A DNA stretch of 64,000 nt from Oceanisphaera profunda (GTDB taxonomy: Bacteria; Pseudomonadota; Gammaproteobacteria; Enterobacterales; Aeromonadaceae). Where the stretch lies: NCBI RefSeq assembly GCF_002157895.1, contig NZ_CP021377.1, positions 2,728,001-2,792,000 on the forward strand. Direction: 5' to 3'. The notes beneath the pieces were generated by a model. That model saw nothing but the letters and a program-made list of their open reading frames with translations. It did no database searches and was not told the origin of the DNA. Shown in pieces: positions 38,154 to 40,390 of this stretch. Numbering within the stretch: the first letter of the stretch is position 1; the number at the start of each line of letters is the position of its first letter. Both the position numbers and the translations under genes were made by a program.

Positions 38154-38243
38154 GGCAGCGCCGAGCACCAAGCGCCCTGCGCCCAGCTAAAGATAAACCC
38201 CGAACAGGAAGGCTCAGTTTTTTTGTTTGGTTGGGATATTTAT

Positions 38244-38272
38244 TCCGTCATCCTGACGAAAGTCAGGATCTC
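38244..38272. repeat. Single half of the GCCGTCAT cloverleaf repeat
   Basis: CCGTCATCCTGACGAAAGTCAGGATCTC with a GAAA-type loop. It is one of several repeats filling the 38154-38840 gap after ubiF; no gene was seen there. Confidence 0.7.
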
Positions 38273-38329
38273 TGTGTGATAGCACAATATTGGCTAACGA
38301 GTCGTTGAGATTCTACAGAAGGCTGTGGT

Positions 38330-38462
38330 TTTGTAGGAGCCCGTATCTTCAGCGAAAAGTACTTCGGCTCAGTTTTATGTTTTGAATGTAAAGCAGCCAG
38401 CTCTGCTGTCCCGCCGAAACTCTCTGCCTAACAAAAGTGGCGGCTACAAGTTCTGGAGGCTA
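38330..38462. repeat. TTGTAGG/GGCTACAAG REP-like pair
   Basis: TTTTGTAGGAGCCCG at the left and CCCGCCGAA ... GGCGGCTACAAGTTC at the right. The right half closely matches 53058-53118 (CCAGCTACGCTGG, CCCGCCGAA, GGCTACAAGTTC). Confidence 0.5.
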
Positions 38463-38508
38463 GTTATACCAAACACACTAAATAATTGATCTATTACAAC
38501 CAGTACAA

Positions 38509-38630
38509 AAGAGGAAACAGAGTCACCTACCTCGACACGCCATAAACCCATCCATGGGGGCTCGGGAAATGCCATCCCTGGTATTGTCACGGTCGTGGGA
38601 GGCGATCTCTGTTACCTCTCTTAAGCACCG
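38509..38630. repeat. Large palindromic intergenic element (CATGGATG family), copy 3
   Basis: Outer arms AGAGGAAACAGAGTCACC and, on the right, the complement of AGAGGTAACAGAGATCGCC match at most positions. Inner hairpins are CCCATccATGGG and AATGCCAtccCTGGTATT, the same two-hairpin layout as the copies at 7910 and 38676. Confidence 0.65.
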
Positions 38631-38675
38631 AGCTGTCTGCTAACTTCACCCACAGGCGGCTACGTGGCATAGGGG

Positions 38676-38785
38676 CGGATAAAGAGATCTACTCCACCGA
38701 CCATCACATGACATGGATGATCATGTGTTTGAGCGCCACAGGGATGTGCTTGCAGCGTGTCGGTGGAGTAGGCCGTTTATCCGAC
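38676..38785. repeat. Large palindromic intergenic element (CATGGATG family), copy 4
   Basis: Outer arms GGATAAA..(AT)CTACTCCACCGAC and GTCGGTGGAGTAGG..TTTATCC pair over more than 20 positions. Inner hairpins are CACATGA-catggatga-TCATGTG and CACA-ggga-TGTG. Its reverse complement aligns with the element at 4515. Confidence 0.75.
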
Positions 38786-38856
38786 CTTTACAGGAAGTAA
38801 AAACTGACTACTTATTTAGTACGATTGGTATTAAACCTAAACACCAGACAGCAAAA

Positions 38857-38876
38857 AGCCGACTTAAGAGTCGGCT
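38857..38876 (-). terminator. Distal terminator of the tRNA operon
   Basis: AGCCGAC and GTCGGCT form a 7-bp stem around TTAAGA, with five U on the minus strand. It follows the outermost tRNA-Gln remnant. Confidence 0.75.
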
Positions 38877-38886
38877 GTTTACTTAA

Positions 38887-38936
38887 TGGCAGGGGTACCG
38901 AGAATCGAACCTGGGCACTGAGGCCGCGATCAAAAC
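38887..38936 (-). pseudogene. tRNA-Gln 3'-half remnant 1
   Basis: On the minus strand it starts in the anticodon loop (GTTTTGATC) and runs to a CCA-like end. The T-arm is altered, and the 5' half (acceptor, D arm) is missing. It shares GGCCTCAGTGCCCAG with the other remnants but not with the intact tRNA-Gln genes. Confidence 0.7.
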
Positions 38937-38985
38937 CCGTAGCCTGCTCTGGATTAAACAAGAATCTAAATCCTAGATAGCAAAA

Positions 38986-39004
38986 AGCCAGCACTAGGCT
39001 GGCT
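38986..39004 (-). terminator. Proximal terminator of the tRNA operon
   Basis: AGCCAGC and GCTGGCT form a 7-bp stem, with five U on the minus strand, directly after tRNA-Gln remnant 2. The layout duplicates the remnant-terminator pair at 38857-38936. Confidence 0.75.
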
Positions 39005-39014
39005 TCTTACTTAA

Positions 39015-39064
39015 TGGCTGGGGTACCGAGAATCGAAGCTGGGCACTGAGGCCGAGATCAAAAC
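39015..39064 (-). pseudogene. tRNA-Gln 3'-half remnant 2
   Basis: About 50 bases matching the tRNA-Gln 3' half, with the same derived bases as remnant 1 (GAATCGAAGC for the T loop region, GGCACTGAGGCC). No D arm or 5' acceptor strand, so it cannot fold as a tRNA. Confidence 0.7.
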
Positions 39065-39089
39065 TTAATACAGCTGCCATTACTAAATA

Positions 39090-39164
39090 TGGCTGGGGTA
39101 CCAGGATTCGAACCTGGGGATGGCGAGATCAAAACCCGCTGCCTTACCGCTTGGCGATACCCCA
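39090..39164 (-). tRNA. tRNA-Gln (anticodon TTG)
   Basis: 75 bases including the encoded CCA. Acceptor TGGGGTA/TACCCCA, D arm GCC..GGC, anticodon loop TTTTGAT with TTG, T arm CCAGG-TTCGAAT-CCTGG. Identical in sequence to the copies at 39627 and 39860. It is the last intact gene of the operon. Confidence 0.97.
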
Positions 39165-39262: not shown

Positions 39263-39347
39263 TGGTGCGGAAGGCGAGACTTGAACTCGCACACCTTGCG
39301 GCGCTAGAACCTAAATCTAGTGCGTCTACCAATTTCGCCACTCCCGC
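39263..39347 (-). tRNA. tRNA-Leu (anticodon TAG)
   Basis: 85 bases with encoded CCA and a long variable arm (CGCCGCAAGGTGTG), typical of type II tRNAs. Anticodon loop TTTAGGT region gives TAG. It is nearly identical to E. coli leuW and occupies the equivalent place in the cluster. Confidence 0.97.
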
Positions 39348-39354
39348 TAAAAAG

Positions 39355-39431
39355 TGGTGGCTATGGCGGGATTCGAACCTGCGACCCCATCATTATGAGT
39401 GATGTGCTCTAACCAGCTGAGCTACATAGCC
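39355..39431 (-). tRNA. Elongator tRNA-Met (anticodon CAT)
   Basis: 77 bases with encoded CCA. GGCTATG acceptor strand pairs with CATAGCC, and the CTCATAA loop gives anticodon CAT. The G1-C72 pair and sequence match elongator metT/metU rather than initiator tRNA. It is the same as the copy at 39941. Confidence 0.97.
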
Positions 39432-39548: not shown

Positions 39549-39598
39549 TGGCTGGGGTACCAAAAATCGAACATGGGCGCTAAGGCCGAGATCAATGC
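39549..39598 (-). pseudogene. tRNA-Gln 3'-half remnant 3
   Basis: TGGCTGGGGTACC end plus degraded T arm (AAAAATCGAACATGG) and GGCCGAGATCA. It starts at the anticodon-loop region; no 5' half is present. Confidence 0.65.
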
Positions 39599-39626
39599 TT
39601 GATGCTTCCAACTTTAAAACTAAATA

Positions 39627-39701
39627 TGGCTGGGGTACCAGGATTCGAACCTGGGGATGGCGAGATCAAAACCCGCTGCCTTACCGCTTGGCGATACCCC
39701 A
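39627..39701 (-). tRNA. tRNA-Gln (anticodon TTG)
   Basis: 75 bases with encoded CCA, same sequence as the copy at 39090. It forms part of a tandemly duplicated block. Confidence 0.97.
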
Positions 39702-39783: not shown

Positions 39784-39833
39784 TGGCTGGGGTATGAAGA
39801 ATCGAGTCTGGACACTAAGGCCGAGATCAAAAT
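39784..39833 (-). pseudogene. tRNA-Gln 3'-half remnant 4
   Basis: TGGCTGGGGTA end, then a strongly degraded T arm (TGAAGAATCGAGTCTGG) and CTAAGGCCGAGATCAAAA. It is the most diverged of the four remnants. Confidence 0.6.
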
Positions 39834-39859
39834 TAAATACATCCAACTTTAAAGCTAGT

Positions 39860-39934
39860 GGCTGGGGTACCAGGATTCGAACCTGGGGATGGCGAGATCA
39901 AAACCCGCTGCCTTACCGCTTGGCGATACCCCAA
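39860..39934 (-). tRNA. tRNA-Gln (anticodon TTG)
   Basis: 75 bases with encoded CCA, same sequence as the copies at 39090 and 39627. No CTG-anticodon tRNA-Gln is present in this cluster, although E. coli has both kinds at the equivalent site. Confidence 0.97.
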
Positions 39935-39940
39935 CAAAAA

Positions 39941-40017
39941 TGGTGGCTATGGCGGGATTCGAACCTGCGACCCCATCATTATGAGTGATGTGCTCTAACC
40001 AGCTGAGCTACATAGCC
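39941..40017 (-). tRNA. Elongator tRNA-Met (anticodon CAT)
   Basis: 77 bases with encoded CCA, same as the copy at 39355. It is the first gene of the tRNA operon, about 60 bases from the predicted promoter. Confidence 0.97.
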
Positions 40018-40080: not shown

Positions 40081-40109
40081 ATTATGCGTATCCAAGTTCA
40101 GAGCGTCAA
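40081..40109 (-). promoter_or_regulatory. Promoter of the tRNA operon
   Basis: On the minus strand TTGACG (40104-40109) and CATAAT (40081-40086) have 17-base spacing, followed at once by the GC-rich discriminator GCGCCCC. That discriminator is typical of stringently controlled stable-RNA promoters. The position upstream of the first tRNA supports it. Confidence 0.8.
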
Positions 40110-40218
40110 CCGCTTTTTCGGTAAAAAACCCGTTCTGCGGATCGTTTGCTGATAAAGTAAACGCTTAGGCTGAGGAATAGACAAATTTAGCGCTAAGCGC
40201 CCAGCATCAAGTATTTAT

Positions 40219-40350
40219 TTTGTCATCCTGATGAACATCAGGATCTCGGTTTTATTTTTAGAACTAAGAGCGAGATACCGGATCAAGTCCGGTATGACGG
40301 AGTGTAATTTATGGTCTTGCCGTCATCCTGATGCACATCAGGATCTGGTT
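40219..40350. repeat. One complete and one half GCCGTCAT cloverleaf repeat
   Basis: The first copy has hairpins CCTGATGAACATCAGG and ACCGGATCAAGTCCGGT, both with stem changes compensated on the other side relative to other copies. The half copy at 40320 has CCTGATGCACATCAGG. The rest of 40110-40498 holds the ychF terminator and a heptad tract (40449 on). Confidence 0.85.
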
Positions 40351-40390
40351 TTGTTTTTAGAACTAAGAGCTTATATCGGCAATAAAAAAA

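Follow-up and report, generated by a model that had tools for sequence, protein, structure and literature searches.

Tandem tRNA-Gln remnant and terminator modules at the tail of an Oceanisphaera profunda tRNA operon and their relatives in the Aeromonadaceae

Transfer RNA (tRNA)-linked repeats (TLRs) have been known since 1978. Escherichia coli K-12 carries 22 of them at ten loci, with one to five at each, and their hallmark is a last stretch of 18-19 base pairs (bp) that repeats the 3' end of the upstream RNA; according to the accessible text of the source, TLRs in tRNA operons had no known function as of 2021 (PMC8144298). Among the matches listed in the open PubMed Central literature, TLRs are named in this paper only. 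The same partial text places the TLRs of the ribosomal RNA (rrn) operons, RrA/B/F, between dual terminators, and its authors suggest that in rrB RNase E recognises the repeated 3' end and that the dual terminators regulate the rrB level (PMC8144298). Here we describe a comparable arrangement at the end of a tRNA operon of Oceanisphaera profunda, located in a window of 64,000 nucleotides (nt; contig NZ_CP021377.1, positions 2,728,001 to 2,792,000), in which two successive modules each join the 3' half of a tRNA-Gln gene to an intrinsic terminator.

Both modules, which the initial annotation had placed at the operon tail, are present on the minus strand, where the 64-nt stretches 38873-38936 and 39001-39064 are 92% identical and lie 128 nt apart. 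Read in operon order, each module consists of a tRNA-Gln 3' half, from the anticodon loop through the CCA end, followed by a hairpin with a T-tract. The hairpin of the first terminator (T1, 38985-39005) has a folding energy of -13.9 kcal/mol (z -3.8) and that of the second (T2, 38857-38876) one of -12.6 kcal/mol (z -6.0). The annotation's count of two was right for the tail, and its set of remnants was incomplete; the operon holds four, one after each tRNA-Gln gene (RA, RB and RC) and one (RD) behind the first terminator. When 38880-39090 was searched against the whole genome, RA was recovered at an expectation value (E) of 4.7e-12 and RB at E 2.0e-10, and no remnant was found beyond the operon at that sensitivity, three matches of E 0.1-0.64 aside. 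The remaining matches were the module itself, the three intact tRNA-Gln genes, and two terminators after tRNA-Trp and tRNA-Thr. A chance resemblance of the modules to tRNA-Gln is ruled out by these E values together with the 92% identity of the repeats. The operon and its tail comprise the following features, with the tRNA genes in the order Met, Gln, Gln, Met, Leu, Gln on the minus strand:

40081..40109, minus strand: promoter-like site TTGACG-17-CATAAT directly upstream of the first tRNA (consensus scan, 10 of 12 matches; a consensus weak by itself, with 1 found in the region against 3.1 in shuffles)
39941..40017, minus strand: tRNA-Met (cat) (ARAGORN, Rfam)
39859..39933, minus strand: tRNA-Gln (ttg), copy 1 (ARAGORN, Rfam)
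39784..39851, minus strand: remnant RA, tRNA-Gln 3' half in spacer 1 (model R1, 58.8 bits, RA being among the model's rows)
39627..39701, minus strand: tRNA-Gln (ttg), copy 2 (ARAGORN, Rfam)
39549..39616, minus strand: remnant RB, tRNA-Gln 3' half in spacer 2 (R1, 66.9 bits, RB being among the model's rows)
39355..39431, minus strand: tRNA-Met (cat) (ARAGORN, Rfam)
39263..39347, minus strand: tRNA-Leu (tag) (ARAGORN, Rfam)
39090..39164, minus strand: tRNA-Gln (ttg), the final intact gene (ARAGORN, Rfam)
39015..39082, minus strand: remnant RC of tail module 1, tRNA-Gln 3' half plus extra arm (R1, 71.4 bits, its own row)
38980..39006, minus strand: terminator T1 (hairpin-and-T-run script and fold; absent from the consensus scan)
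38887..38954, minus strand: remnant RD of tail module 2, tRNA-Gln 3' half plus extra arm (R1, 70.8 bits, its own row)
38852..38876, minus strand: terminator T2 (consensus scan on both strands, hairpin-and-T-run script and fold)

All four remnants carry GGCCTYAGYGYCC, a small extra arm, at the site occupied by GCCATCCCC in intact tRNA-Gln, in keeping with the earlier claim that they share derived bases absent from the intact genes. No complete cloverleaf was detected at RA to RD, where neither ARAGORN nor Rfam called a tRNA. In the window and seven related loci no Rfam family covered the elements; matches to E 0.1 in those seven loci were confined to intact tRNAs, antisense sub-threshold matches to tRNA-Met, and one sub-threshold match to MicX, which sits in a tail without remnants. 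In the predicted fold of RC (z -2.9, 1 of 200 shuffles equal), the CCA is paired within a closing stem, TAATGGC/GCCATTA.

The ancestry of the modules was examined among relatives, with Oceanisphaera, Zobellella and Oceanimonas (the window's group) taken together as a single genus, separate from Aeromonas. A manual reading of the matches to model R1, which was constructed from 19 remnants, gives 39 remnants in 14 of the 22 loci of the window's group and none in the other 8; several of the 22 loci score as named Zobellella or Oceanimonas loci do, with identical sequence where both were compared. From the 42 known elements of the group (the 39 R1 matches, L047 s2, and two L055 elements by eye) 36 were picked for the pairing set, leaving L043 B (identical to RB), L043 T2, the truncated L043 T3, L044 t3, L045 t2 and L047 t3. 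The fixed window fails to cover the 5' arm of the two short L055 elements, which were therefore omitted from the pairing, nearest-remnant and CCA tests. No intact tRNA-Gln is as near to any of the 34 remnants compared as another remnant is, and for 32 of them a remnant of another locus is also nearer than the intact genes. Consequently, decayed copies were themselves copied, as the initial annotation had proposed, and independent derivation of the two modules from intact tRNA-Gln is ruled out. Tandem arrays tell the same story: in a close relative (G059), spacer 1 holds a tandem run of three remnants, each 75-76 nt long, and the tail is longer and ends in a truncated copy, and another genome (G048) has three near-identical modules spaced 115-116 nt, each with a terminator. 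Across the relatives, the comparison of module number that had been advocated gave 0 to 3 tail copies. A loose pattern recognized the extra arm in 31 of 34 remnants, across named Oceanisphaera, Zobellella and Oceanimonas relatives.

Terminators are gained together with remnants. The hairpin-and-T-run script identified two to four terminators in 10 of 10 tails with remnants and a single one in 11 of 11 tails without (21 tails of 420 nt each, with tail-remnant numbers entered by hand; L062, where no operon is annotated, was left out of the 22 loci, and L065, in which only Met and Gln precede the tail, was included). Since extra terminators track remnants in this manner, remnant and terminator were copied as one unit. 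In Oceanimonas baumannii (L021), three copies pass directly from the terminator T-tract into the anticodon-loop TTTTGATC, which suggests that the shared T-run may have acted as the joint in copying. The terminator GCCGGCCTCAGTGCCGGC of L045 is so similar to the extra arm that the arm may have been derived from the terminator. Overall, the anatomy of the modules, the common ancestry of the remnants and the coupling of remnants to extra terminators are established.

The elements of Aeromonas, about 66 nt long, lack a D-arm and combine a T-arm with a long anticodon-like arm and a closing stem of acceptor type. A second model (R2), with a cut-off of E <= 1e-9, has matches in 15 of the 37 Aeromonas genomes, some of whose assemblies break inside the operon; across 394 genomes of the order this narrow model matched Aeromonas only (9 genomes, 1 of 114 genera). 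In 23 distinct Aeromonas sequences 93% of cells pair, against at most 49% for slid structures, and changes on both sides occur in 8 of 21 pairs (3.7 ± 1.1 in shuffles, 0 of 500 reaching 8), values obtained from an alignment that leans to the model because it was made with the model's structure and shares with it five rows used in building it. Real co-change in the stems is supported because the slid controls are low and because L071 has a T-stem of CCAGG/CCTGG in place of the CTAGG/CCTAG that its intact genes retain. The ratio of G-U to A-C cells in these stems (36 to 12, with 53 to 26 in shuffles) does not clearly favor selection at the RNA level, and the anticodon loop varies among elements. 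A further Aeromonas element (R2, E 3e-7) occurs behind a lone tRNA-Gln at another locus (L095, G036:C1:1225499), with a quite different sequence and the same kind of fold (z -4.6). Other Aeromonas operon spacers (L069-L094) also resemble hairpins by eye, with sequences that vary among species (e.g., GTTCTTTG..GAGGAAC and CTTGTA..TACAAG). Among 51 matching papers in the open PubMed Central literature, the 15 listed by title include none on tRNA-like or pseudo-tRNA elements of Aeromonas.

Pairing of acceptor ends was evaluated with shuffles, in tests whose p values take no account of relatedness. The 3' ends of spacer elements from Zobellella and Oceanimonas pair with their own 5' regions better than with shuffled ones (n=15, Fisher p 9e-8), as do those of 24 Aeromonas elements (median 0.20, Fisher p 1e-5), and the five Oceanisphaera spacer copies gave p 0.10; the difference in pairing between Zobellella/Oceanimonas spacers and tails was significant (Mann-Whitney p 2e-4). 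In a swap control, each 3' end was offered the 5' regions of other elements and the share that paired as well was counted; medians were 20% for the Zobellella/Oceanimonas spacers and 22% for the 24 Aeromonas elements. A closing stem is accepted for these two sets. As a general property of all remnants it is rejected, since neither the shuffle nor the swap test gives a signal of it in tails. In the first alignment of 19 sequences, the anticodon, extra and T stems were paired in 79.3% of cells with 43 of 500 shuffles equal, which is weak support, and the extra arm, the sole structure predicted by RNAalifold, was paired in 96.5% of cells. Zobellella spacer-2 copies retain part of the D region, and the term D-armless is therefore limited to Aeromonas. 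All 14 picked tail copies and all 5 Oceanisphaera spacer copies retain the CCA end, against 7 of 15 Zobellella/Oceanimonas spacer copies (tail vs Zobellella/Oceanimonas spacer, Fisher p 0.002; the truncated last copy of G059, which has no 3' end, lies outside the count), and some of the Zobellella/Oceanimonas spacer elements bury it in a stem.

Our favored reading, to which we give an even chance, is that the tail is a TLR-like array in which back-up terminators carry a mimic of tRNA 3'-end processing. A segment composed of the 3' half of an already degenerate tRNA-Gln and an intrinsic terminator would have been copied in tandem, probably by unequal exchange or slippage. RNA polymerase starting at the operon promoter would transcribe RC and end at T1, with T2 halting the few molecules that go past; because RC precedes T1, it would be expected on every full transcript and RD after read-through only. 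The piece formed by T-arm, acceptor strand and CCA, with its A- and U-rich linker, would imitate a tRNA 3' end, and RNase E and trimming exonucleases would cut behind it as behind a real tRNA, detaching the terminator hairpin. The remnants would produce no tRNA, because their 5' half is missing. Retention of the CCA in tails would fit such a 3'-processing signal. In the spacers of relatives, pieces of this type may have refolded into pseudo-tRNAs with covarying stems that serve as structured spacers between tRNAs.

A number of observations weigh against this reading. In 11 of 21 tails there is a single terminator, and the second one is consequently dispensable. The tail copies gave no closing-stem signal in the shuffle test (n=14, Fisher p 0.45) and a median of 70% in the swap control; that control was also failed, with a median of 83%, by the five spacer copies of Oceanisphaera, which include RA and RB. 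RD folds no better than its shuffles (z -0.3, 65 of 200 equal). The figure for CCA retention in tails may be biased upward because the copies were found through their 3' ends, and retention may also reflect recent copying. When compared with G059, RA, RB and RC are 92, 100 and 97% identical, as against 93-97% for other stretches of the operon, and RD is 77% identical to the copy compared, perhaps not its ortholog; since these identities match the rest of the operon, no extra constraint is apparent for the copies of the window itself. A Zobellella pair compared in the same way has in spacer 1 a remnant more conserved than the rest of its spacer (95 vs 73%), and in spacer 2 one that is less conserved (85 vs 100%).

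A broader proposal is put forward tentatively, as possible and less than probable: the remnants would be a selected RNA family of the Aeromonadaceae, a pseudo-tRNA-Gln (D-armless in Aeromonas) whose acceptor end has been re-paired into a new closing stem, and which would either be cut out of the tRNA precursor as a small structured RNA or stay in place to insulate the folding of repeated tRNAs from one another; the tail modules would be its newest copies, still similar to tRNA. The refolded spacer pseudo-tRNAs of relatives, covarying in Aeromonas, are the more interesting part of the system and lie beyond the coordinates of the tail.

The back-up terminator reading must be weighed against neutral debris, in which tandem duplication and decay leave remnants and extra terminators behind as by-products that bring no benefit, with hairpins restored by template switching as the DNA replicates; such renewal can mimic compensatory change. 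Hairpins can be both created and repaired by template switching (PMC8794818). Copy number is erratic, 11 of 21 tails having no remnant at all; the pairing signal is absent from tail copies, and the asymmetry of G-U and A-C cells in Aeromonas lends selection no clear support. However, the three-arm fold of Aeromonas has persisted although 8 of 21 pairs changed on both sides and one-sided G-U steps occur, a fold of this kind recurs at the second tRNA-Gln locus (L095, z -4.6) despite its quite different sequence, and by the loose pattern the extra arm is retained in 31 of 34 remnants across named relatives in Oceanisphaera, Zobellella and Oceanimonas. On balance we find debris unlikely. The remnants may also represent attachment-site scars, attR-like leftovers of lost elements once integrated in tRNA-Gln, and tRNA 3' halves are indeed classic integration targets. 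We consider this origin highly improbable: the tandem units include the operon's terminator and an extra arm unlike intact tRNA, the tRNA-Pro copies described below likewise end in a terminator, and no island was detected within the 420 nt or less examined at each tail, longer stretches and the whole window not having been searched for integrases. The five neighboring proteins tested are UbiF-family, MiaB, YchF, Pth and PhoH-like, and miaB, ubiF and the tRNAs stand in E. coli order.

A function as small RNA (sRNA), sponge or decoy would have processing set free RC-T1 (about 100 nt) or the spacer elements as stable RNAs with RNA or protein targets, in the manner of 3'ETS-leuZ or RrA/B/F of E. 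coli. The position of the tail equals that of 3'ETS-leuZ, a product of RNase E (PMC5222698, in its accessible part), and that of RrB between dual terminators (PMC8144298, likewise), the fold of RC beats its shuffles, and the pseudo-tRNA of Aeromonas covaries. Against it stands the patchy distribution, since R2 matches 15 of 37 Aeromonas genomes and 8 of 22 loci of the window's group lack an R1 remnant; any sRNA function would be dispensable, given the many genomes and loci without elements. Moreover, the anticodon loop is variable among Aeromonas elements, and a decoy role based on the CCA ill fits the spacer elements, in which the CCA is often lost (Zobellella/Oceanimonas) or buried in a stem. 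From sequence data we judge this function improbable.

A parallel array exists in the same genome. The tail of an Arg-His-Leu-Pro-Pro operon (G000:C1:1869702-1870080; L120, L127) contains two modules of pseudo-tRNA-Pro plus terminator, 156-158 nt apart, in which the final 30 nt are those of the tRNA-Pro 3' end in both copies and a terminator hairpin follows each. This pseudo-tRNA retains the D-arm, the T-arm and the CCA and has lost the 5' acceptor strand. One module of the Pro type is found in several relatives (L128, L129, L131, L135, L138), and none or a disrupted one in others. Pseudo-tRNA-Pro was also observed in Leu-Pro and Pro-Pro spacers of six loci (L133, L136 with two, L137, L140, L142 and L147), where the 5' acceptor strand and D-arm are intact, the anticodon arm is enlarged, and the T-arm is replaced by a mini-hairpin, e.g., GGGTGCGACCC. 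The second tRNA-Gly spacer (154 nt) of L115 (G000:C1:2489400-2491000) holds the 5' half of a pseudo-tRNA-Gly (first 35 nt, 86% identity). Giroux and Cedergren reportedly described a Photobacterium tRNA-Pro/His cluster with pseudogenes.

The tRNA-Gln operon is flanked by ychF on one side and by ubiF/miaB on the other, and the miaB-ubiF-tRNA order is that of the E. coli glnX-metT region. The closest named relative of the UbiF-family protein is that of Candidatus Oceanisphaera merdipullorum (89% identity). Between T2 and ubiF (38462-38835) lies an element resembling a miniature inverted-repeat transposable element, with 20-nt inverted ends that are 85% complementary; it has a 353-nt genomic copy at 99% identity and 28 matches in the genome, itself and partial ones included. 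A short palindromic repeat (ATCCTGAYG..TCAGGAT), possibly a dispersed repeat family, flanks the operon on both sides (38237-38280, 40212-40255 and 40312-40355). A thiamine pyrophosphate (TPP) riboswitch was identified at 2349-2453 on the minus strand (Rfam, 78.6 bits).

Taken together, this group of genomes shows TLR-like repeats in many stages, as fresh tandem modules with terminators, degenerate tail copies, and refolded spacer pseudo-tRNAs with covarying stems, and the Pro operon parallels the Gln operon in this. Debris, back-up terminator and RNA can be tested against each other by comparison of sister strains whose module number ranges from 0 to 3.

How the locus relates to described systems can now be specified. 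The predicted pseudo-tRNA of Bacillus cereus, tRNA-Other, lies beside a pathogenicity island and is not a remnant inside a tRNA operon, as far as the accessible text of PMC3399842 describes it. 3'ETS-leuZ, whose partners are RyhB and RybB, is, like the tail, the 3' trailer of a tRNA transcript (glyW-cysT-leuZ), from which RNase E releases it (PMC5222698), and differs in that the accessible parts of two papers mention no tRNA-derived remnant in it (PMC5222698, PMC8144298). RrA/B/F share with RD, and with RD only, a location between two intrinsic terminators; they belong to rRNA operons and derive from the 5S end, and interaction with Hfq and CsrA is reported for them in the available text (PMC8144298). 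The closest likeness is to the TLRs of E. coli. The comparison with its tyrT locus, already drawn in the initial annotation, proved apt: tyrV is trailed by three further copies of its final 19 nt at a spacing of 178 nt, and fold prediction shows the tRNA piece of this repeat likewise forming a new closing stem (GGGGAAGGAT/ATCCTTCCCC). Like TLRs, the window remnants lie in a tRNA operon, downstream of the gene that is repeated, and in numbers within the range of one to five (two in the tail, four in the operon). Unlike TLRs, they carry a complete 3' half of the tRNA, about 50 nt long and with an extra arm, their modules include an intrinsic terminator, and such pieces are also inserted in spacers between tRNAs; the homologous glnX and proM tails of E. 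coli contain no such repeat. The exact match to the tRNA 3' end is 13 nt in RC and <7 in RD, as against 18-19; among relatives, it reaches 29 nt in L039, L040 and L044 and 18 in L047, is at most 14 in L043, L048 and L059, and is absent at >=7 nt in L045 and L054. Because 13 nt falls short of the 18-19 rule, the window copies are a degenerate relative of TLRs and not a strict member, and the tRNA-Pro copies of the same genome, with a match of 30 nt found twice, are TLRs by that rule. By analogy, the window copies may work as TLRs do.
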